In this document: one piece after another, positions 25,286 to 61,447 of the stretch
How positions within the stretch are numbered: the stretch's first letter is position 1
How the letters are laid out: every line of letters starts with the position of its first letter
Assembly: GCA_026162565.1 (NCBI GenBank)
Contig: JAOEIQ010000013.1
Location: 1-64,000 of the forward strand
Origin: Flavobacteriaceae bacterium NBU2973
GTDB lineage: Bacteria; Bacteroidota; Bacteroidia; Flavobacteriales; Flavobacteriaceae
Direction of reading: 5' to 3'
DNA length: 64,000 bases
The notes under the pieces: model-generated
Told to the model about the DNA's origin: nothing
What the model saw: only the letters and a program-made list of their open reading frames with translations
Databases searched by the model: none
Program-made: the position numbers and the translations under genes

Positions 25286-26776
25286 TCAACTGTTTTTAAG
25301 CATTTTAGACCTATCAGAAAGCGTGTGCTTATTCAGAATTCTTTTACTCTCTTTCTTTACCAAAGGATTTTTTTTCATGTTCCATAGTATATCACTCGCT
25401 TTTTTTCTAGTTTCTTTTATATCTACTATTGGGTAAGGGTAGTCAACTCCTAATTTAAAATTATAAAACTGCTGTTCTAATTCTGTCATTAGATAGGGTT
25501 CATGAGCAAAATGCGTTTCTAAATTTGCTAATTCTGGAACCCATTTTTTTATGAAGATTGCTTCTGGGTCGTGTTCAATACCATTTTTTATTGGATTATA
25601 AATTCGGAGGTTATTTATACCAGTTTCTCCAGCTTGCATTTGTAGTTGTGGGAAATGAATACCTGGTTCGAAATCTAAAAACATTTGAGAGAGGTGTTTT
25701 GTTGCTTCTTGCCATGGTTGCCATAAAATGTGAGTAAAAAATGAAACAAGCATTGCACGCATTCTAAAGTTTAAATAACCAGTAGTATTTAAACAACGCA
25801 TACTAGCATCTACTAATGGAAAACCTGTATTACCAGTTTCCCATGCTATTTTGTAGTGTTTAGAGATACTTTTTTTTAGTTTATGATAGCCTTTATTAAC
25901 ACTGGAGTTTTCCATGATATGCTCCATTTCAAATTTTTGAATGAAATGAGCTTGCCAACGTAAACGTGATAAAAATGCACCAATGTGACGTTTATTGTTA
26001 TAATTGGTTTCTATAGATTTACCTTTTTGATAAATTTGCCTAACTGACACATTTCCCCATGAAATATAAGGTGACAATCTACTACAGCTGCTTCTAGATA
26101 ATTCAGGTTTAGAAATGTTAAACATATAATCTTTATGCCTTGTTTCAAAAAATGTATCAGCATATTTCCAAGCTGTAGTTGTGCCTCCTTTTTGAAAAGA
26201 TTTGGAATCTTCAGTTGTTAAGTCTTTTTTGGTAAATAGGTTTTCAATTACTTCGATTTCCTCAATAGAGAATAATTGATTAGCACTCGGATTACATTCA
26301 AATTGAGATTGACTCATGTAAGAGTTCCAGTTATCAAACCAGTGCTCTCTGTTTTTTATTCCTCTTTGTACTCCATTATTATCATTTTCAATCCAATCAA
26401 TTAAGTTGTTCTTGCAATATCTTGCAAAGGTTTTATCACGATCAAAAGTTACTTGTAATCCAGTTTCTTTATGTGAAAAAACAGATTTTACTTGGTAGAA
26501 GTTCTGTAATTGATTGAATACTCCAACTACTTCAGATTGTACTGTTAATACTCTAGAGTTATGTGACTCTAGTTTTTTGTTTATATCTACTAACGATTGT
26601 TTTATAAAATCCCAATGCCTTTTGCTGTAATGATTATCATTCAATAATAGAGGCTCAAAGGCATACATAATTAGCACACGATTATTAGATTTTAAGGCAT
26701 TAAAAATGGCTTCGTTGTCCTCGAGTCTTAAATCGCGTTTTAGCCAAACAACAGAAATGGGGATTTTTTGTATCAT
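25286..26776 (-). CDS. Divergent cryptochrome/photolyase family protein
   Basis: The protein has 496 residues. The N-terminus VVWLKRDLRLEDN and the FAD domain (SPYISWGNVSV, GNTGFPLVDASMR, NFRMRAMLVSF, LRIYNPIKNG) are clear. Where other members read N-x-G-x-W-x-W this one reads H374-FPQ-L378-Q-M380, so the FAD-proximal Asn is His and two Trp are Leu and Met. Classical Trp-triad electron transfer and CPD repair are therefore doubtful. It could be a light sensor or an alternative repair enzyme. It overlaps the upstream photolyase by 4 bp and ends the distal operon. Confidence 0.88.
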   Translation of the reverse strand: MIQKIPISVVWLKRDLRLEDNEAIFNALKSNNRVLIMYAFEPLLLNDNHYSKRHWDFIKQSLVDINKKLESHNSRVLTVQSEVVGVFNQLQNFYQVKSVFSHKETGLQVTFDRDKTFARYCKNNLIDWIENDNNGVQRGIKNREHWFDNWNSYMSQSQFECNPSANQLFSIEEIEVIENLFTKKDLTTEDSKSFQKGGTTTAWKYADTFFETRHKDYMFNISKPELSRSSCSRLSPYISWGNVSVRQIYQKGKSIETNYNNKRHIGAFLSRLRWQAHFIQKFEMEHIMENSSVNKGYHKLKKSISKHYKIAWETGNTGFPLVDASMRCLNTTGYLNFRMRAMLVSFFTHILWQPWQEATKHLSQMFLDFEPGIHFPQLQMQAGETGINNLRIYNPIKNGIEHDPEAIFIKKWVPELANLETHFAHEPYLMTELEQQFYNFKLGVDYPYPIVDIKETRKKASDILWNMKKNPLVKKESKRILNKHTLSDRSKMLKNS

Positions 26777-28248: not shown

Positions 28249-29556
28249 TTAAAATAGTGTAGGTTGTAACCAAGTATTTTGAAATTTACCATTTGCATCA
28301 TAGCGTTCAGCTTGAAGTTTTACATTAAATTTTCTATCTCTAGGATCGTTACCAACTCCAGCAACATACATCCAATTGCCATAATTGCTATGTACATCAT
28401 AGTCAATGAGTAAGCTCTCAAAGTAGGCAGCTCCTATTCGCCAGTCTAACTCCAATTCTTTAGCAAAATATGATGCCACGTTTTGTCGCCCGCGATTACT
28501 CATCCAGCCAGTATGTTTTAGTTCTAGCATATTGGCATTTACAAACGGTTCTGATGTCTCTCCATCTATCCATTTTTGAATAGCTTTAGGATTGCTACTC
28601 CAAGAATAGTTTTTGTCTAAAATGCCTCCAATTTTAAACAGTTTACTTCCATATTTGAGAGAAATATATTTAAAATAATCTCTCCAAATAAGCTCGAAAA
28701 TGAGCCAATAAGTAGACTCATTTTTATAATTGTGTTTTTCAAACTCTTTAACTTTCCAATAGATAGTTCTTGCAGAAATACTACCATTTGCAAGCCATGA
28801 GGAAAATTTAGAACTATAATCTGTACCAATTAATCCATTTCTAGTTTTTTTGTAAAACCCTAGTTTTTTTGTTTCAAAAAAATAATTGTTTAAACGTTTT
28901 AAGGCTTCTGTTTCGCCTCCTTTAAATGGAAAAGCTGAATTTGAATGTACAGTAAAGTCTTTAAAACCTAAATCTGAAAGCGTTGGTATTACAGTTGAAT
29001 TATTTACAAGGTTATTTTTTGGTTTGGGAATTATTTTATTGACTTCTCTAATAGTGGCATACTTTTCAAGCTTTTTTCTGAAAGCTGTAAATACTTGAGG
29101 TATTGAGTTTATCTGAATAGGAATATCTTCTGGATGGTATAAAAACTGGTCGTAACTTTCATTAATTTTTACTTCAGGACTAATTTTATCTTTTACCGAA
29201 TTAATGACGATTAATTCCTCTTGAGTCCATTCTTTTTGACAGTATAGATTACTGATTTTATAAGTCTCAATGAGGTCAGTAATTTTTACTTCAGGAGTAG
29301 TTTGATAAACAAGTAAAGAGATATTTAGTTGTTGTAATGTGTGTTTTAAATCAGATAGCGTTTCTAGTAGAAATTTAGTCCGAAACTTACCAGTTTTTAT
29401 AAAACCATAGTCATCTTTTTTGGATTGCCTAGGATCTAGAAAATATACAGCAATTACCTTTTCATGATTTTTACAAGCATTAGATAAACTCATATTATCG
29501 TTTACTCTTAAATCATTTTTGAACCAAACTAAACCTGTTGTTTTTTTGTTCTGCAT
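28249..29556 (-). CDS. cryD: Cryptochrome DASH
   Basis: The protein has 435 residues. The N-terminus has the typical LVWFKNDLRVNDN, and the C-terminus carries the DASH signature GNWMYVAGVGNDPRDRKFN followed by KLQAERYD. SNYGNWMY keeps the FAD-proximal Asn and first Trp. DASH proteins repair CPDs in single-stranded DNA and RNA and bind methenyl-THF as antenna. It overlaps the DUF2256 gene by 28 bp and abuts the (6-4)-like gene. Confidence 0.95.
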   Translation of the reverse strand: MQNKKTTGLVWFKNDLRVNDNMSLSNACKNHEKVIAVYFLDPRQSKKDDYGFIKTGKFRTKFLLETLSDLKHTLQQLNISLLVYQTTPEVKITDLIETYKISNLYCQKEWTQEELIVINSVKDKISPEVKINESYDQFLYHPEDIPIQINSIPQVFTAFRKKLEKYATIREVNKIIPKPKNNLVNNSTVIPTLSDLGFKDFTVHSNSAFPFKGGETEALKRLNNYFFETKKLGFYKKTRNGLIGTDYSSKFSSWLANGSISARTIYWKVKEFEKHNYKNESTYWLIFELIWRDYFKYISLKYGSKLFKIGGILDKNYSWSSNPKAIQKWIDGETSEPFVNANMLELKHTGWMSNRGRQNVASYFAKELELDWRIGAAYFESLLIDYDVHSNYGNWMYVAGVGNDPRDRKFNVKLQAERYDANGKFQNTWLQPTLF

Positions 29557-40437: not shown

Positions 40438-41724
40438 TTAGTCGATGACTTTGATATACTCACAACTTTCATCAAAAACATAACCTTTACCTTTTTTAAT
40501 AAAGCACTTGTTAAAAGGTTCTTTTTGATACCAATCTTTAGAGAGAATGTTTTTACGTTTATTTTTCTTTTTCTCTACTTGTTTAAAAGTTGGTAAAATA
40601 CCAAGTTCTAAACGATCTATAACAGATTGATGAATCTTTATTTTGCCTTTGTTAAAATCGATAGTTCGTTCTCTGTATTTGTTTAAATAACGGTTGCGTC
40701 TTAAAAAAGCGATACCATAATCTATTTGCGCATCATGAGCTAATCCAAATACATGAGTAGAATCTATAACTGTTCGATTTTTAAATAAATTATAATCCTC
40801 TAATTGTTCTTGCATCCATTTTAGAGGCACATACGATAACTTATCATCTGGCTTATTTTCTTTTTTATAACCACCACCAACATCTGAATGCGCTCCAGAA
40901 AACCAAACCTCTTCTACTTTTTCTTGAGAGTTTGAGGCTATACAAGGGCAAGTCGCTAAAATTGGAGTAAATATTCGCGCACGATTATCATCTAGAGATA
41001 CTGCATGATTTACTTTTTTAACATTAGTAAATTGATCTAAATGATTTGTATTAGGACAGCAAGGATTATAACGACCATCAGGAGCACCAAGTGCTTCAAC
41101 AGTGTCAAATAGATTGAGGGTTTCAATATTGATGTTTTCTCGACGTTTTATTGCCATTTTATACTTGTCTTCCCACTTTTTTATAACCAGATTAATATCC
41201 TTTTTTCGTTCGTTCATGGTTTTCTTTCCTAAATAGGCTTTATAAAGTTTTCGAATGAGTTTGCGTTGTGATTTTTCATCTTGAATATTTGTAAAATCTA
41301 TCACACCAATGAGATGAACCATATTCGATATGATTTTACAAGTGTAAGCACCACGACTAAAACCAAATAGGTGAATGCGATCATTATTTGTTTTGCTATA
41401 ATTCTGACATAAAAAGCGATACGCATTTTGTACATCTACAGAAACACCAACACCTAAAAACTGACCAGCTCGTTTTGCATCAGGTCCTGCGCCAACTCCA
41501 ACAGTATAAAAAGAGAGTAGGTCTTTACGTTGTTTTAAGTTAGTTCGTAACTTGTAGATATTACTATTATCTTCAGGTTTAAAAGCTGTTCCATCAATAA
41601 AAACAGTGATGTCTTTTGCAGCAGTATATGGATCTGGAATAAGAACTTCTGGTGGAATAGCTTTACAGCCAAAACAAAGAATTAAAACATTAAAAAGAAT
41701 CAAAAGCTTTACAATGGCTTTCAT
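40438..41724 (-). CDS. DUF2235 (Tle1-like) alpha/beta hydrolase lipoprotein
   Basis: The protein has 428 residues with a lipoprotein signal (lipobox ending FGC, Cys20). The DUF2235/T6SS phospholipase Tle1 fold is shown by TVFIDGTAF near the N-terminus, GFSRGAY (Ser123), LFDTVEALG (Asp207) and GAHSDVGGGY (His279, Asp281), a full Ser-Asp-His triad. The family includes lipases that attack membranes. Here it is membrane-anchored and stands alone, with no T6SS gene near, so a housekeeping lipid hydrolase or esterase role is more likely than effector use. Confidence 0.85.
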   Translation of the reverse strand: MKAIVKLLILFNVLILCFGCKAIPPEVLIPDPYTAAKDITVFIDGTAFKPEDNSNIYKLRTNLKQRKDLLSFYTVGVGAGPDAKRAGQFLGVGVSVDVQNAYRFLCQNYSKTNNDRIHLFGFSRGAYTCKIISNMVHLIGVIDFTNIQDEKSQRKLIRKLYKAYLGKKTMNERKKDINLVIKKWEDKYKMAIKRRENINIETLNLFDTVEALGAPDGRYNPCCPNTNHLDQFTNVKKVNHAVSLDDNRARIFTPILATCPCIASNSQEKVEEVWFSGAHSDVGGGYKKENKPDDKLSYVPLKWMQEQLEDYNLFKNRTVIDSTHVFGLAHDAQIDYGIAFLRRNRYLNKYRERTIDFNKGKIKIHQSVIDRLELGILPTFKQVEKKKNKRKNILSKDWYQKEPFNKCFIKKGKGYVFDESCEYIKVID

Positions 41725-53837: not shown

Positions 53838-55472
53838 TTAAATTGTTTTCAGTCCTAATTGCTTCAAATATTCGTTGTGTTCATTCAATGACTTAGTTGC
53901 TTTCTTTTCTATTTCAGACAGCTTTTCATTCACATCATCCAAATCAATTATCGGTTCCGGTTTTGCTGTACTTACATAACGAGAAATATTCAAGTTAAAA
54001 TCGTTTTTCCCGATTTCTTCCATTGAAACTCTACGTGCATATCGCTCTATCTTTTCTGGGCGATTTTGGTAGGTGTCAACTATTTCTTGAATGTCATTTG
54101 GTTCTCCGTTTTCACCAGTTCTTAAATAGTTCTGACGCTTCTCTTTTTTATAATGTTCACTTGCATTGATAAACAACACATCATCTTCTTTTTTGCATTT
54201 TTTTAATACTAAAATACAAACTGGAATTCCAGTAGAAAAGAATAGGTTAGAAGGTAAGCCAATAACAGTATCAATATTATTGTCCTTTAATAGCTTAGTT
54301 CTAATACGTTGCTCGGCACCACCTCTAAACAACACTCCGTGTGGTAAAATGATAGCCATTGTTCCTTCATCACTTAAAAAGTGAAAACCGTGCAACAAAA
54401 AGGCAAAATCTGCTGCCGATTTTGGTGCTAATCCGTAGTTTTTAAATCGGAAGTCTTCTGCCATAGCTTCTGATGCATCCCAACGTAAACTAAAAGGTGG
54501 ATTGGCTACAATTGCATCAAATTCTATTTTTTTGGCTGGATTCATTTCGTTTAAAATATCCCAATCATTTTTCAACGTATCCCCGTGAAAGATTTTAAAT
54601 TCTGAATCCTTAACACCACGTAGAAGCATATTCATTCGAGCCAAGTTGTATGTAGTTACATTTTTTTCTTGACCATAAATACGGCTAATGGTTCCGCCTT
54701 CATCTTCTATTTTATTCTTCACATTAAGAAGTAATGAACCTGAGCCACAAGTGAAATCTAGTACATTATTCAGTTTTTTCTTCTTCCCAGATTTTGGGTT
54801 TTGGCTATCTAAGGTTACAATTTCAGAAAGAATTGTAGATAGTTGTTGTGGTGTATAAAATTCGCCTGCTTTTTTACCTGAACCTGCTGCAAACTGACCA
54901 ATTAAATATTCATAAGCATTACCTAAGTCGTCAGCACCTGTGTCAAATTCTTCAATGCCTTCTGCTATCTTTTGAATGATAGTACACAGCTTTTTATTTC
55001 TCGCTTCGTAATTCTTGCCTAGTTTTTCAGAATCTAGATTGATTTCTGAGAATAAGCCTTTAAATGAGTTTTCAAACGACTCGTTTTCGATGTATTTAAA
55101 CCCTTTTTGAAGTGTTTTTAATAAATCTCCGTTTTGTGTTCTTGCTAATTCGGAAATACTGCGCCATAGATAATGTGGTTCGATAACGTAGTGGACTTTT
55201 CTGCGCATTTGTTTTTCGAACTCTTCTATATCATTTGGATTTGCTTTATACCAAATTGAAAGCGGTGTGCGTTTATCGTCTTCTTCTAATTTTGGATAGT
55301 CTGAGCCTAATTCTTTTTTTACAGATTGCTCATAGTTATCTGACAAATAGCGTAAAAAGAGAAATGACAACATATAATCACGGAAGTCATCCGCATTCAT
55401 TGCCCCTCTTAAATTATTAGCTATATCCCAAAGGGTTTTTCCTAGTTCTTCTTGTCTTTGTTGTGCTGTCAT
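53838..55472 (-). CDS. hsdM: Type I restriction-modification DNA methyltransferase subunit
   Basis: The protein has 544 residues. It has the N-terminal HsdM helical domain (LGKTLWDIANNLRGAMNADDFRDYML), the SAM site DFTCGSGS (239-246), and the catalytic NPPF (324-327). It adds N6-methyladenine at the site read by HsdS. It is the last gene of the hsdR-hsdS-prrC-hsdM operon and overlaps prrC by 4 bp, so a drop in translation of prrC would affect it. Confidence 0.97.
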   Translation of the reverse strand: MTAQQRQEELGKTLWDIANNLRGAMNADDFRDYMLSFLFLRYLSDNYEQSVKKELGSDYPKLEEDDKRTPLSIWYKANPNDIEEFEKQMRRKVHYVIEPHYLWRSISELARTQNGDLLKTLQKGFKYIENESFENSFKGLFSEINLDSEKLGKNYEARNKKLCTIIQKIAEGIEEFDTGADDLGNAYEYLIGQFAAGSGKKAGEFYTPQQLSTILSEIVTLDSQNPKSGKKKKLNNVLDFTCGSGSLLLNVKNKIEDEGGTISRIYGQEKNVTTYNLARMNMLLRGVKDSEFKIFHGDTLKNDWDILNEMNPAKKIEFDAIVANPPFSLRWDASEAMAEDFRFKNYGLAPKSAADFAFLLHGFHFLSDEGTMAIILPHGVLFRGGAEQRIRTKLLKDNNIDTVIGLPSNLFFSTGIPVCILVLKKCKKEDDVLFINASEHYKKEKRQNYLRTGENGEPNDIQEIVDTYQNRPEKIERYARRVSMEEIGKNDFNLNISRYVSTAKPEPIIDLDDVNEKLSEIEKKATKSLNEHNEYLKQLGLKTI

Positions 55473-56836
55473 TCTTGTACAGTTTCAGTTTCTATTTCAG
55501 GCACGATTTCAGGATTGAATTTGTAGTTTTTTAAAAACTGCCTAAGTATTCTTTTAAAATGTTGTTTGTTTTCAGGAAGCATTTCAATGGGTTCATACAA
55601 TGAATAATTCCCGTGACTTAAAATATTAATCATCCTAGTATATATCACGCCATTTTCGTCATCTTCCTCTGGTTTTATGCAATCTGAAAAATTAGCAAAA
55701 CCGTGAAATGATGCCGTTTTCTCTAAGATGCTTCTAAGAATATTAAAATGATAAGAGTATAAATTTCCATTTTCAACTGCGTTGTGTAAATCTTTAATAA
55801 GTGATACGTGATGAAAAAATGGTGTGTCTGTAGTATCAGTTAATTTATATTTAATATCCTCTAGTTTACTTAGAAAGTATTTCTGTCCACGTTTTAATTC
55901 ATTACACATAACATTGAAAAATAAAGTATGGTGGGAAGAAATTATAACTTTTACATTGTTGTCATTTGCTTTCAACATTCTTGCTAAGTGACTAGCCACA
56001 GCAATTGTATTGTTATCATCTAGTGAAGAAATAGGGTCATCTATGTAAATGTATTTTACCCAATCATAGTTTTGGTCGCCATCAATTGCGAGTTGAGCAA
56101 TTGCTAGGAAAAAGCACCAAATAAAAATGTTTTCTTCACCTCTTGAAACTTTAATAAATTCCTTATTTTGAGCTGTACCACCAACTAATTCTTCACGAAT
56201 AAAGTTAACTGCCCAATGTTCGGTTTCATCACCAGTATCTTCGGCTTTAGGTTTCTTGTATTTAAAATCAATCTCAAAATTGAAATCTGCGTATCTTTTT
56301 AAAAGTGGTCGTATTCTGTTGGCAATATCTAATGACTCAATCAAGCTTTTATCATCTTCAGCACCTGTGCTTCCAAAGAACTTTGAATCTCTGTTTAATA
56401 ATAGTACACGATGTGTGTCATCATCTAAATCATTATCCCAAGTGAACAAGTCTTCTGTAAAAGCATTAAAATAAAGTGTTTCCTTATTCTCGCCAGTTTT
56501 ACTCAACTCTCTAAATTTCATAGAAAGTCTTGTTTTACCTGTACCATTGTAAGCAAATAATAAAGTGTACTTTTTGTCTATTGACTTGATGTGATTTACA
56601 ACTTCATCTAAAGAATCAAATGGAATGAATCCAACAGTTTTTAAGATGCTAATAATCTTATTTGTCGTATTCTCATCTAAACCTTCTTTTAAAAGGTATG
56701 CATCCTGTACACCGTTCAGAGTGTAATTGTCTTCTATCGTTTTTTTGAAATCGGTATTCTTAAACTCAGGTTTATTGAGTTTTTTTAAAATCTCTTTTTT
56801 GAATACAATTTCTGGTATGTTAGTTATTTCGCTCAT
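55469..56836 (-). CDS. prrC: PrrC-type anticodon nuclease (RM-guarded)
   Basis: The protein has 455 residues. The N-domain is an ABC-like ATPase: Walker A FAYNGTGKTRLS (K101), NAFTEDLFTWDNDL (124-137), an SRGEE signature (231-235), Walker B IDDPISSLDDN and SSHHTLFFNV. Each block matches E. coli PrrC, as I recall it, nearly word for word. The C-domain nuclease triad is R368, E372 (NILRSILEKTASF) and H408 (NILSHG), matching R320/E324/H356 of PrrC. The K-box differs (KLTDTTDTPF in place of KYGDSNKSF). PrrC cuts the tRNA(Lys) anticodon when phage disables the restriction enzyme. The first 90 residues are extra. It sits between hsdS (2-bp gap) and hsdM (4-bp overlap). Confidence 0.95.
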   Translation of the reverse strand: MSEITNIPEIVFKKEILKKLNKPEFKNTDFKKTIEDNYTLNGVQDAYLLKEGLDENTTNKIISILKTVGFIPFDSLDEVVNHIKSIDKKYTLLFAYNGTGKTRLSMKFRELSKTGENKETLYFNAFTEDLFTWDNDLDDDTHRVLLLNRDSKFFGSTGAEDDKSLIESLDIANRIRPLLKRYADFNFEIDFKYKKPKAEDTGDETEHWAVNFIREELVGGTAQNKEFIKVSRGEENIFIWCFFLAIAQLAIDGDQNYDWVKYIYIDDPISSLDDNNTIAVASHLARMLKANDNNVKVIISSHHTLFFNVMCNELKRGQKYFLSKLEDIKYKLTDTTDTPFFHHVSLIKDLHNAVENGNLYSYHFNILRSILEKTASFHGFANFSDCIKPEEDDENGVIYTRMINILSHGNYSLYEPIEMLPENKQHFKRILRQFLKNYKFNPEIVPEIETETVQE

Positions 56837-56838
56837 AT

Positions 56839-58089
56839 CTATAAATCATTTATATTAGGAAATAACTGTTGCAACAAACCTTTTTTATGTTCTTGTAAAA
56901 ACACAATTTTATTGGCTTGTTCCTGGATTAAATCATCTGCTAAAGTCAAACAGTTGGCTATCTTTTCTTGTTCCTTTGGGTCTTTTGGTTTTAGAAATGG
57001 AAATGACAAAACGGTATCTTTTCTCAGGTTCGTTTGTTTTACACCATCATCAAAAGCTAGGAAGTATTTGTTTCTGTTTTGAACGTAAAACAGAAATTTA
57101 TTGTCAATGTCTGTTGGTGTTATTTTACAAATACGTTGGTTAACGGTATAGGTATCTTCTTTATCCACATAGAAGCATTTGGCAATGGCTTTTCCATTTG
57201 GAATATCACTCAAAACCATTAAGATATCACCAACAATAGCTTTTAAATTAGCTGAATCGGTAAACTTTACAACTTCTCCATTGGTTGAAATGAATTTCGA
57301 GTTTACAACTTTGTATTTTCCTCTTTCAGATATTTCTTTTTCGTGAGCTTTTCCATTTTCATAGTCAGCTACATCATCAAGGATAGTATCTTGCCAATCT
57401 CCATCATCCATAAACTCAGGAAAACGAAATTTAGGTTGCGTTTCACCTTCTGCTGGGAAAAGTTGTTGTAATAATCCTTTTTTGTGATCTTTTAAATAAT
57501 CTAGTTTTTCGGTTTCTGCTGTGATGACTTCATCTAGAGAGGATAGGCAGTCAGCTATTTTTTGTTGTTCTTTTGGGTTTAATGGAAAAAATAACTCTAC
57601 AGATTTAATGATATCGCCTGATAAATTACCTTGTCCGCCCTGCAAATATTTGTTCGTAATCCAATTCTTTTTATGAGATAGATATTGATGCAAAAAGGAA
57701 TTATTATGTTTTGAACGTAAGCATAGAATTGCTTGATTAATAACACCATCAATTTTCGAAATAGCAACATCGCCACTATTAGCACCATACATAGCTACTA
57801 GAACATCACCCTTTTTCACATATTTTGCTGATGAATTTTTGTAACCATCTTCAGTCAAGAACAATTCAGTTTTCTCCTTATCAATTTCTGCCGACCTTAT
57901 AAAAGGTATATTTCCACCATAAAAATCCACATTGGTCGATTTTGGGGTGCCACCACTAAATGGCTTTTCACAAACTTCTTCAATCTTATTTTTCGTCCAA
58001 TCTCCATCTCTTTCAAACTCAGGAAAGCGCAACTGTGGTACTATCCCTTCGGCTCCGCTCATGGCAAGTTTTTTTTCTTCCTTATTCAT
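56839..58089 (-). CDS. hsdS: Type I restriction-modification specificity subunit
   Basis: The protein has 416 residues with two target-recognition domains. Each is followed by the coiled-coil segment HKKGLLQQLFP, near 207-217 and 400-410. TRD1 begins PQLRFPEFERDGDWTKNKIEEV and TRD2 begins PKFRFPEFMDDGDWQD, a clear internal repeat. The recognition site cannot be predicted by eye. It overlaps hsdR by 8 bp and is 2 bp from prrC, so stoichiometry is likely fixed by coupling. Confidence 0.95.
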   Translation of the reverse strand: MNKEEKKLAMSGAEGIVPQLRFPEFERDGDWTKNKIEEVCEKPFSGGTPKSTNVDFYGGNIPFIRSAEIDKEKTELFLTEDGYKNSSAKYVKKGDVLVAMYGANSGDVAISKIDGVINQAILCLRSKHNNSFLHQYLSHKKNWITNKYLQGGQGNLSGDIIKSVELFFPLNPKEQQKIADCLSSLDEVITAETEKLDYLKDHKKGLLQQLFPAEGETQPKFRFPEFMDDGDWQDTILDDVADYENGKAHEKEISERGKYKVVNSKFISTNGEVVKFTDSANLKAIVGDILMVLSDIPNGKAIAKCFYVDKEDTYTVNQRICKITPTDIDNKFLFYVQNRNKYFLAFDDGVKQTNLRKDTVLSFPFLKPKDPKEQEKIANCLTLADDLIQEQANKIVFLQEHKKGLLQQLFPNINDL

Positions 58090-61048
58090 AAGCGTTTAAT
58101 CCTGCAATTTCTCGCCCTTGGGCTAGTTTGTTTAATAATGGCACTAAGTCTTCCATTAGTGCTAATTCTGATACTCTACGGTCTTTCCAGCCTAATTCTA
58201 ATGGTGCTAATAAATCAGTTAGCTTTTCGCCATCAAATAGCATTCGGTATAGTATTTCATCTATAAACATTTTGAGATTTTCACTTGCGATATTGTGTTT
58301 TTCTGCAATGTTTAATACTTCTTGTGCAGACTTTTCATCTTTAAACTTTTGATAGCCTTCTCGTATCTCTTTTTCGGTCATTCCATTACCAACCTCTAAA
58401 GTGTTGATGTAGGCAATAATATCTTCACGCTCGTCCATTAAGTTGGCACTAGAGCTCAATAGATTAATCAATTGCAGACGTGTCATCTTATGTTTAGATG
58501 GTTTGTCTTGGGTGTATTTGACAATAAGCCCAATAATATAATCATAATCTATAATGGCAGAAGAAAAGAGTACAAACTCAAAATCTAATTGCTCTACTAC
58601 TTCTGGTAAGTCTTTACCACCTTTGTCTTGTTGTGCTTTTAAACGCTTTGCCGTGTCTAAATAATTGCTCTTAAACGAACGGAAATCGTCTGTGGGCAAT
58701 ACGGCTTCAATGGTTTCGCTTTGCGTGTCTTCCAAATCGGTATATTGGTCGAGTTGCGTTTTTAAACGCTGTACTTCTTTAAAAGAATTAATAAACTCAG
58801 CACGAGCTTCGTCACCTTTTAAATTAGCTACCTCCGAAGGTGTACATTCCAATCCTTTAGATTCCATAAAGGTTTTGAGGTTGGCAACGGCTTCTTTGTA
58901 TTTTACAATCACCTTTGGTGCTGCATCTACTACCCAAATTTCTTTCGGATTGTCAACATTAGCTCCAGAGAACAATACCATTGCTTTGTCAACGGCTTGT
59001 TCTTGCTGTCTAAAGTCTAAAATATTACCATACGGTTTGGTATCGTTAATCACGCGATTGGTACGTGAAAAGGCTTGTATGAGTCCGTGATATTTTAGGT
59101 TTTTGTCTACGTATAAGGTGTTTAGGTATTTAGAATCAAAACCAGTTAAGAGCATATCTACCACAATCATCACATCAATTTTGTTTTTATGTGGATAATC
59201 TTTGTTTGAGAACTTCTGATACTTTATGCGTTGTTGTACATCTTGGTAATACCCATCAAATTCGTTTATTCTATGGTTAGTGCCATATTGAGCATTGTAG
59301 TCTTTTATGATTTGGGTTAAGGCTTCCTTCTTTTTGTTAGGTTCAATAGCATTGTCCGCTTTTTCCTGTGGTAAATCTTCCTGTATTTGCTGAATATCTT
59401 TATTGCCTTCGGCTGGTGGCGAAAACACACAAGCAATATTTAGCGGTCTGTAGTCTTCATTGATTTCTGCAAACTCTCTTTGGTTTTGCTTGAACAAGTG
59501 GTAATACTCAATAGCATCAGCGATAGAAGAAGTTGCCAAAATAGCATTGAACCTTCTATGATGTGTAGCTTTATCGTGCTTTTTTAGAATGGCATCTATA
59601 ACAGCCATTTTATGGCTCAAACTAGTTGTGTCTAGTTTTGTATTGCTATTGAAATAGTCGATATGAAAACGCAATACATTTTTATCTTCTATGGCATTGG
59701 TAATGGTGTAGGAATGTAATTCCTTTTGAAAAACGTCTGTTGTTGTTTTGTATGATGCAGTTTGTCCTTCAATGGTTTTATAGGTCGCATTTTCTTCAAA
59801 AATGGGTGTTCCTGTAAAACCAAATAATTGTGCATTTTCAAAAAACGTTTTAATGGCATTATGATTTTCTCCAAATTGTGAACGATGGCACTCATCAAAA
59901 ATAAAAACGACACGTTTGTTTCTTAGAGGTTCTAAACGCTCTTTGTAGTTGCGATTATTCTTTGGGTCTAATGCTAAACCTAATTTTTGAATGGTAGTTA
60001 CAATTACTTTGTCCGCATAATCCGTTGAAAGCATTCTCTTTACCAAAGTTTCAGTATTTGTGTTTTCTTCAACACTACCTTCCTGAAACTTGTTAAATTC
60101 CTGACGTGTTTGTCGGTCAAGGTCTTTTCTATCAACGACAAATAAGCATTTTTCAATATTTGGGTTTTCTTTTAAAAGGGTAGAAGCTTTAAAAGAAGTT
60201 AATGTTTTTCCACTTCCTGTGGTGTGCCAGATGTAACCGTTTCCCCTGTTTTGGTCTATACAATCTATAATGGCTTTTACTGCATAGATTTGATACGGAC
60301 GCATCACCAGTATTTTTTGTTCGCTAGCCACCAAAACCATATAGCGACTTATCATTTGACCCAATGTGCACTTGGTTAAGAACTTGTCGGTAAAGTCGTC
60401 TAAATGATTAATTTTTTTGTTGTCCTCACTTGCTAAAGTATAAACTGGTAAAAATTGCTCATCAGCATTAAAAGCGAAGTGTTCATTATTGTTATTGGCA
60501 AAATAGAATGTTTTTGATTTATTACTTACTATAAACAATTGCATAAAACACATTAGCGAATTGGTATATCCGTTTCCTGCATCATTTTTATAGTCCACAA
60601 TTTGTTGCATTGCCTTGTTAGGACTTACTTCCAACGTTTTTAGTTCTATTTGAACAACAGGAACGCCATTAATAAGGATAATGACATCATATCTGTGATT
60701 GCTGTTTTTTGTGTTTATGCGAAGTTGGTTAATAACTTCAAAGTCATTTCTGCACCAATCTTTTATATTTACAAGAGTATAGTGTAATGGAGTTCCATCT
60801 TCACGAGTGAACGTATTTGTTTTTCGTAGATAGTTGGCCGAAGTAAAGACATCAGGATTTACAATTTCTTCTCGTAATTTTTCAAATTCAGAATCCGTTA
60901 GATTTACTCTATTGAGTTTCTCAAATTTTTCCCTAAAATTTTGTTCAAGAGCATTTAAGTCACGAATATCAGATCGATAGGTATATTTTAAATCTTGTAA
61001 TCTACCTACAAGTCCATATTCTATATCTGCTTCTTTAACTAAGTTCAT
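58082..61048 (-). CDS. hsdR: Type I restriction enzyme motor and nuclease subunit
   Basis: The protein has 988 residues. The N-terminal nuclease has the PD-ExK pattern (D121, E135-L-K137 in VVQIELKT). The helicase part shows the Q-like segment RPYQIYAVKAI, Walker A TTGSGKT (276-282), DECHRSQ (385-391), LFGFTGTP and DMLLTGFDSKYLNTLYVDK. ATP-driven translocation ends in random cleavage of unmethylated DNA. It is the first gene of the operon and probably ties the fates of HsdR and PrrC together. Confidence 0.97.
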   Translation of the reverse strand: MNLVKEADIEYGLVGRLQDLKYTYRSDIRDLNALEQNFREKFEKLNRVNLTDSEFEKLREEIVNPDVFTSANYLRKTNTFTREDGTPLHYTLVNIKDWCRNDFEVINQLRINTKNSNHRYDVIILINGVPVVQIELKTLEVSPNKAMQQIVDYKNDAGNGYTNSLMCFMQLFIVSNKSKTFYFANNNNEHFAFNADEQFLPVYTLASEDNKKINHLDDFTDKFLTKCTLGQMISRYMVLVASEQKILVMRPYQIYAVKAIIDCIDQNRGNGYIWHTTGSGKTLTSFKASTLLKENPNIEKCLFVVDRKDLDRQTRQEFNKFQEGSVEENTNTETLVKRMLSTDYADKVIVTTIQKLGLALDPKNNRNYKERLEPLRNKRVVFIFDECHRSQFGENHNAIKTFFENAQLFGFTGTPIFEENATYKTIEGQTASYKTTTDVFQKELHSYTITNAIEDKNVLRFHIDYFNSNTKLDTTSLSHKMAVIDAILKKHDKATHHRRFNAILATSSIADAIEYYHLFKQNQREFAEINEDYRPLNIACVFSPPAEGNKDIQQIQEDLPQEKADNAIEPNKKKEALTQIIKDYNAQYGTNHRINEFDGYYQDVQQRIKYQKFSNKDYPHKNKIDVMIVVDMLLTGFDSKYLNTLYVDKNLKYHGLIQAFSRTNRVINDTKPYGNILDFRQQEQAVDKAMVLFSGANVDNPKEIWVVDAAPKVIVKYKEAVANLKTFMESKGLECTPSEVANLKGDEARAEFINSFKEVQRLKTQLDQYTDLEDTQSETIEAVLPTDDFRSFKSNYLDTAKRLKAQQDKGGKDLPEVVEQLDFEFVLFSSAIIDYDYIIGLIVKYTQDKPSKHKMTRLQLINLLSSSANLMDEREDIIAYINTLEVGNGMTEKEIREGYQKFKDEKSAQEVLNIAEKHNIASENLKMFIDEILYRMLFDGEKLTDLLAPLELGWKDRRVSELALMEDLVPLLNKLAQGREIAGLNAYE

Positions 61049-61159: not shown

Positions 61160-61447
61160 CTAATCTTCTCTATAACTAATCCTATCGCGAATCCCACCAC
61201 TTTCTCGATGGATAATGACATCGGCATGTTTACGTTTAGCTAAAACTTTGGCTTTATTGATGGCTGTACTCTGTTTGCGGTGTTTGCTAGTAATACGCTT
61301 ATTACCTTCGCGGCGCACAGCCCAACCATCTTCGTAAGGTACGACATGTTGGTGCCAAGTACGTTTTTTATTAGCATTGCGTGAAGCATCAAATAATGCT
61401 TCTAATATTTCTATTAAGGTTTTAAACCAGGATTTTTTGGTAGCCAT
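61160..61447 (-). CDS. DUF2188 domain protein
   Basis: The protein has 95 residues. A short N-terminal helix precedes the DUF2188 motif: HVVPYEDGWAVRREGNKRIT, STAINKAKVLAKRKHADVIIHRESGGIRDRISY. The family is small and has unknown function. It lies 112 bp upstream of hsdR on the same strand. Confidence 0.88.
   Translation of the reverse strand: MATKKSWFKTLIEILEALFDASRNANKKRTWHQHVVPYEDGWAVRREGNKRITSKHRKQSTAINKAKVLAKRKHADVIIHRESGGIRDRISYRED

Follow-up and report, generated by a model that had tools for sequence, protein, structure and literature searches.

A probable two-tier antiphage operon with an intact PrrC-type anticodon nuclease gene and the order hsdR-hsdS-prrC-hsdM in Flavobacteriaceae bacterium NBU2973

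An operon with the gene order hsdR-hsdS-prrC-hsdM was identified on the minus strand of contig JAOEIQ010000013.1 of Flavobacteriaceae bacterium NBU2973. With a probability of roughly 0.85, it belongs to the R-S-prrC-M lineage as an intact two-tier antiphage system of the PrrC type. The whole stretch of 64,000 nucleotides that was analysed (positions 1 to 64,000 of the contig) is referred to as the window. Gene content, intact frames, motifs, lineage, the predicted ATPase fold and the likely target tRNA with its loop were established directly. Restriction-linked tRNA cutters form two old lineages, one represented by the textbook case of E. coli; the other, less studied and with the order R-S-prrC-M, is common and crosses phyla. 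For specialists, the part that may merit following is the exchange of prrC as a cassette. The following features were assigned.

58082-61048, minus strand: hsdR, type I restriction subunit, 988 aa, first gene of the operon, from family matches
56839-58089, minus strand: hsdS, type I specificity subunit, 416 aa, with two target-recognition domains
55469-56836, minus strand: prrC, anticodon-nuclease gene, 455 aa, from family, motif and model evidence
53838-55472, minus strand: hsdM, type I methyltransferase subunit, 544 aa, last gene of the operon
56612-56836, minus strand: clade-specific N-terminal domain, PrrC residues 1-75, from sequence comparison
56531-56548, minus strand: Walker A NGTGKT, PrrC residues 97-102, from the 107-row alignment
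56015-56041, minus strand: Walker B / D-loop DDPISSLDD, PrrC residues 266-274, from the 107-row alignment
55721-55735, minus strand: R368 and E372 of the nuclease triad, PrrC residues 368-372, from alignments
55613-55636, minus strand: R-x6-H (R401, H408), PrrC residues 401-408, third triad residue and HEPN-type Rx4-6H spacing

Each of the four open reading frames was intact and started with ATG. An overlap of 8 bp (58082-58089) was found between hsdR and hsdS, a gap of 2 bp (56837-56838) between hsdS and prrC, and an overlap of 4 bp (55469-55472) between prrC and hsdM, the ATG of hsdM overlapping the stop codon of prrC (ATGA). HsdR and HsdM matched TIGR00348 (388.9 bits) and TIGR00497 (383.4 bits), respectively, both above the cut-off. 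Pfam matches were HSDR_N and EcoR124_C (227.7 bits) in HsdR, N6_Mtase and HsdM_N in HsdM, and two Methylase_S stretches in HsdS. All three features of a type I restriction-modification (R-M) system with an EcoR124-like HsdR, an HsdM and a two-domain HsdS were present. Chance or misread frames were ruled out by four strong family matches in intact frames. Compared with the shuffled mean, promoter-like sites were fewer and terminator-like sites more frequent; the scan used an E. coli-type consensus and was given no weight.

Judged by its sequence, the 455-aa protein is a PrrC. It matched the PADLOC PrrC model PDLC02360 over residues 73-445 (436.7 bits, E 1.7e-131) and Pfam AAA_13 with 52.3 bits (cut-off 36); no NCBIfam match was obtained. 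In the host genome it was the only match to the PrrC model at E 0.001. For comparison, 107 PrrC rows were assembled: that of the window, those of relatives on genome contigs (the best 80 of 134), and others from plasmid records and from an even sample of the family. They comprised 105 different sequences, as two pairs had identical PrrC; the best 80 were picked by similarity to the window PrrC, so that the set leans to the window's lineage. R368, E372 and H408 aligned with R320, E324 and H356 of a 396-aa PrrC from an E. coli plasmid (L148), in which these residues and D287 stand at the published positions (PMC2610378, PMC3014915), the published E. coli triad being Arg320-Glu324-His356 (PMC2610378). 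R was present in all 107 rows, E and H in 106 each, and R401 in 103; the R-x6-H spacing from R401 to H408 fits the HEPN motif (PMC3710099). The blocks NGTGKT, SRGEE, DDPISSLDD and SSHH (Walker A, signature, Walker B/D-loop and switch histidine) were largely conserved.

An AlphaFold model of the protein had a mean pLDDT of 83.9. Its best fold matches in the PDB were SMC/Rad50 ATPase heads, and ATPases of retrons and PtuA ranked below them; the HEPN half gave no separate match in this search. The structure alignment covered 64 of the 80 loci from the set of PrrC relatives. A sequence search for a solved PrrC homologue yielded none, the five matches with E up to 1 being weak and unrelated (RFC2, a helicase), and no PrrC match was found in phage records at E 1e-5.

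The preliminary description, made from the DNA letters, had placed a PrrC inside a type I R-M operon in the order hsdR-hsdS-prrC-hsdM, its three junctions being given as an overlap of 8 bp, a gap of 2 bp and an overlap of 4 bp. The coordinates agreed exactly, and so did the family matches of all four genes. Its statements that the ABC blocks are kept and that R368/E372/H408 lie on the PrrC triad were borne out by the alignments with E. coli PrrC and over the 107 rows; a failure of the triad to align, named there as evidence against the assignment, was looked for, and the residues aligned. The flavobacterial origin proposed for the DNA was supported by kinship to Flavobacteriaceae (Paucihalobacter, Aquimarina).

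In EcoprrI-PrrC of E. coli (hsdM-hsdS-prrC-hsdR), a PrrC with an ABC-ATPase and an R-E-H nuclease is encoded directly after hsdS in a type I operon, as in the window, but hsdR and hsdM swap places. This is the order of the classic prr locus (PMC3014915), and the preliminary description had given it correctly. Compared with the E. coli plasmid representative L148, the window proteins were 39% (PrrC), 41% (HsdM) and 39% (HsdR) identical; E. coli PrrC is without the N-terminal extension, and its recognition loop is three residues longer. The plasmid that carries the classic locus of L148 (5229-13076) has genes of phage type (terminase, late promoter-activating protein), and the locus adjoins a gene annotated "3'-phosphatase".

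The four genes of the PrrC170 system of Klebsiella quasipneumoniae are listed as HsdR, HsdS, PrrC and HsdM (PMC11555353), the list being taken here as the gene order; the order is that of the window, in a different phylum. According to the same source, the system, cloned together with the 300 nt that precede the HsdR start, blocks T1 and T7; the PrrC170 protein is toxic and arrests growth, is 35% identical to EcoPrrC and targets tRNA-Lys, as determined by tRNA sequencing. A K. quasipneumoniae plasmid PrrC (L305), which may or may not be PrrC170 itself, was used as a stand-in. With 371 aa it is shorter than the window protein by about the N-terminal domain. L305 and the window were 60% (PrrC), 72% (HsdM) and 69% (HsdR) identical, and L305 PrrC was 38% identical to E. 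coli PrrC; in the L305 locus (R-S-prrC-M) two further genes stand between hsdR and hsdS. Because PrrC170 is active and listed in the same order, and the L305 proteins are 60-72% identical, the window system is a member of a known, active kind. The hsd-prrC locus of Paucihalobacter ruber (L002/L139) shares the gene order and the N-terminal extension with the window, at identities of 91% (PrrC), 88% (HsdR), 89% (HsdM) and 70% (HsdS), but occupies a different chromosomal place.

By analogy with E. coli PrrC and Klebsiella PrrC170, which serve as models for latency, trigger, cleavage and the tRNA-Lys target, the operon probably acts in two tiers. As a first line, HsdR2M2S would methylate host sites and cut unmodified incoming DNA. 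PrrC synthesis is probably translation-coupled to hsdS and hsdM, and the Hsd complex would keep PrrC latent through its SMC/Rad50-type ABC-ATPase head. If a phage blocked or overwhelmed restriction, the ATPase would release the C-terminal HEPN-like RNase, and the released PrrC would cleave tRNA-Lys and cause translational arrest. Stp is a T4-type peptide. The basis for these steps in E. coli PrrC is given in PMC3014915. The earlier suggestion that PrrC would be a suicidal tRNA-cleaving backup for restriction is sound on this analogy.

The likely target was inspected in the host genome. One tRNA-Lys(UUU) gene was present among the 30 tRNA matches examined of 32, and its loop CTTTTAA was the same as that of E. 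coli lysT. The window protein differs from E. coli PrrC around D287, the residue that contacts tRNA-Lys: this stretch has lost three residues relative to E. coli and diverges in sequence, with TPFFHH for SFSYH, a replacement typical of the R-S-prrC-M lineage, and specificity could therefore differ from that of E. coli PrrC. A PrrC of the same architecture, its nuclease shifted by the remodelled recognition loop to a tRNA other than tRNA-Lys, would fit these differences but is unlikely. The identity of the host tRNA-Lys loop with that of E. coli, home of EcoprrI-PrrC, argues against such a shift, as does the presence of the same DTPFFHH loop in the K. quasipneumoniae plasmid PrrC of the same lineage. 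Depending on the alignment, D334 or D337 could stand for D287, and position 337 was acidic in most rows of the R-S-prrC-M lineage (D 74, E 13, n=92). The tRNA-Lys target of PrrC170, listed in the same order (PMC11555353), suggests that the lineage can still read this tRNA.

The gene order had been called unusual in the preliminary description, and this did not hold: R-S-prrC-M was the usual order of a large lineage, present in 76 of the 107 rows. Further rows of this type were S-prrC-M (10), prrC-M (3) and R-S-prrC (1), and R-prrC-M with an hsdS array was found in two; the classic type comprised M-S-prrC-R (14, eight of them plasmid records selected from match lists) and S-prrC-R (1). Thirteen of the 14 incomplete rows of the R-S-prrC-M type ended at the edge of the fetched stretch. 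The exception was L072 (8105-11717, Paraburkholderia), with a short hsdS, prrC and hsdM and no hsdR in 8 kb upstream; prrC was perhaps kept there without its restriction subunit. The survey of neighbours in Flavobacteriaceae that had been proposed was carried out on an even sample of 299 family genomes, and PrrC was found in 16, with R-S-prrC-M in nine, M-S-prrC-R in six and S-prrC-R at a contig start in one. As PrrC170 is listed in this order and 76 of the 107 rows are alike, gene order was not counted as defining PrrC. The nearest prrC ATG lay no more than 20 bp from the hsdS stop in 61 of 76 R-S-prrC-M loci and in 14 of 15 M-S-prrC-R or S-prrC-R loci, a measure that takes the ATG nearest to the hsdS stop and hence favours short distances. 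In both orders prrC stands mostly directly after hsdS; the difference is whether hsdR or hsdM comes first.

In the PrrC tree, the 15 M-S-prrC-R and S-prrC-R rows formed one clade with a support of 100 and the order changed once, in a tree where long branches meet, among them those of four divergent R-S-prrC-M rows. Trees of HsdM and HsdR from a thinned set, which included 39 of the 92 R-S-prrC-M-type rows, separated the same two lineages among the rows listed. Members without prrC fell inside the M-S-prrC-R clade, and the prrC-less L146 fell inside or beside the other. All 11 complete prrC-less loci of the window's HsdR/HsdM lineage (L146, L226-L235) had the order R-S-M. Two deep prrC lineages can be distinguished, one of which has R-S-prrC-M as its order and is found in many phyla by record title; the gene order belongs to the hsd lineage, with or without prrC. 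An origin of the window operon by rearrangement of a classic locus was rejected on two grounds: its HsdR and HsdM stand in a different clade from those of the M-S-prrC-R loci, and the 11 complete prrC-less relatives are R-S-M too. PMC2610378 cites Blanga-Kanfi 2006 for two dozen PrrC orthologues; that work may already list gene orders, and the order survey is not claimed as the first.

Three further loci showed additional features. In L047 (10044-17585, Epilithonimonas) and L032 (10101-16272, Dysgonomonas), complete as well as partial hsdS genes come after hsdR-prrC-hsdM in both orientations, together with an ORF that reads, by eye, like a tyrosine recombinase. L047 has inverted arms of 149 nt at 75%, and none of that length were found in L032; prrC looks here like part of an apparent phase-variable type I system. 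Two prrC-like ORFs (325 and 566 bits) were seen in one hsd operon of a Halomonas MAG (L010, 6178-10086).

Evidence for exchange of prrC between operon backbones came from the comparison of G192 (L141) with G028 (L144), where HsdR was 96%, HsdM 95% and PrrC only 35% identical. In steps of 100 alignment columns, DNA identity of the two loci was 83-100% in hsdR, dropped in the first hsdS recognition domain, was 86-96% from there to the hsdS end, 42-70% across prrC and 91% at the hsdM start, which places the breakpoints at the hsdS end and the hsdM start. In these otherwise near-identical loci, the first target-recognition domain of hsdS was exchanged as well. The HsdRs and the HsdMs of G192 and G028 were sisters with a support of 100, whereas forcing their PrrCs together was rejected (p-AU 2e-58, for groups picked after the identities had been seen). 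A second set (L140 with L142 and L143) behaved alike, less firmly for HsdM (support 89/80). These alignments and trees indicate that prrC moves as a cassette, its alleles being exchanged independently of hsdR and hsdM. A literature search with partial coverage returned no paper that describes the exchange of prrC in place or the order lineages. Natural allele swaps between near-identical backbones offer a means to ask which part of PrrC the Hsd complex recognises.

The window PrrC grouped with those of Paucihalobacter, Aquimarina and G192. The HsdRs and HsdMs of this group formed no clade, and forcing them together was rejected (p-AU 5e-6 for HsdR and 6e-38 for HsdM, again for groups picked after the identities had been seen). 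The window HsdM was closest to that of Flagellimonas L061 (90%), with Paucihalobacter at 89%; the L061 backbone, about as close as any, carries a different PrrC allele (57% identical to that of the window). Such a history would also suit a PrrC that was swapped in as an allele, is no longer silenced or triggered by this HsdRSM, and persists by linkage as a selfish or decaying passenger. We regard this as very improbable, given that the frame, triad and NTPase motifs are intact, the tight coupling to hsdS and hsdM is kept and the PrrC of Paucihalobacter is 91% identical.

The PrrCs of this group carry an N-terminal domain of about 70 aa, which was seen only in Paucihalobacter, two Aquimarina and G192 besides the window. 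Among the best 80 of 134 relatives, only L002, L003 and L004 aligned to the window PrrC from residue 1, with identities in the domain of 77%, 42% and 42%, respectively, and the remaining matches started at window residue 55 or later; G192 PrrC has the domain as well. It was present in three of 249 family genomes, the window's included, on PrrC each time, and no copy outside PrrC was found in these genomes. The window domain had no Pfam match up to E 5, sub-threshold matches being obtained for two relatives only, and no plasmid match was found. A model of the isolated domain (pLDDT 81) had three short strands and three helices, and the fold search in the PDB gave nothing convincing (best E 0.5). 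One may guess that the domain takes part in silencing or triggering.

The place taken by prrC between hsdS and hsdM, interpreted as a cargo position, was surveyed in an even sample of 395 phylum genomes. HsdM of the window's lineage was found in 32, of which 13 had prrC beside HsdM and two more had PrrC on another contig; the 19 prrC-less genomes of the 32 gave 10 complete and nine partial loci, one of the latter (L246) with hsdR upstream of hsdM and no recognised hsdS. The gap contained an ORF of at least 90 aa in 10 of the 11 complete prrC-less loci and was empty in L235. Pfam named at least one gap ORF in eight of those 10, and none in L226 and L227. The following gap genes were assigned by Pfam.

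L146, L228: RhuM
L228:6962-10934, L236:5155-8033: SIR2 and HerA
L232:5116-9046: GajA and GajB (Gabija)
L229: YhcG/DUF1016
L230, L231, L234: Zeta_toxin
L230, L234, L250: PDDEXK_2
L233, L250: DUF559
L234: PIN

Gap ORFs of L226, L227, L230 (143 aa), L233 (90 aa), L249 and L250 (157 aa) gave no Pfam match. Toxins and defence genes inside R-M operons are already known (PMC3506569, PMC3710099), DarTG2 has been described between hsdS and hsdR (PMC12255303), and VapC and HicA adjoin R-M genes (PMC9296519). It is conceivable, though doubtful, that the hsdS-hsdM gap is a true exchange site for last-resort effectors, in which a common backbone would serve as sensor and silencer and PrrC alleles (in relatives SIR2-HerA, Gabija, RhuM, YhcG and zeta-type toxins) would be swapped like the target-recognition domains of HsdS. 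The N-terminal domain would then be an added trigger or silencing module for a new backbone or a new phage product.

That the window protein is instead an anticodon nuclease of the RloC type, in an R-M operon by accident, is scarcely credible: ABC motifs and triad are common to RloC and PrrC, and RloC is sometimes, only rarely, R-M linked (PMC2610378), but the window protein, at 455 aa and with no CxxC, is without the coiled-coil/zinc-hook insert and thus refuted as RloC in its architecture, the PADLOC PrrC model matches nearly the full length against only 43.3 bits for the best other model (PDC-S06), and hsdM or hsdR lies beside prrC in 107 of 107 rows, most of them drawn by similarity to the window protein.

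The window PrrC operon is flanked by ccs and a HAD gene. In L292, L293 and L295, these two genes are separated by 0.7-2.6 kb, and the stretch gave no hsd match; in five other relatives' stretches, neither the HAD gene nor an hsd match was found, and none of the window's flank genes was found in the Paucihalobacter stretches examined. Because the ccs/HAD stretches of relatives are without hsd and Paucihalobacter is without the window's flank genes, the hsd-prrC locus looks like an acquisition at this place. A DUF2188 gene (61160-61447, PADLOC candidate PDC-S16) lies just upstream of hsdR. Its membership of the operon was not supported, no DUF2188 ORF being found in 81 loci (E 1e-5); in a relative that lacks the hsd locus, a DUF2188 also adjoins ccs, though on the opposite strand. 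Elsewhere in the window, the gene at 40438-41724 encodes a protein whose catalytic domain is Tle1-like, of the T6SS phospholipase kind (184 bits), and two photolyase/cryptochrome-type genes (25286-26776 and 28249-29556) lie near each other.
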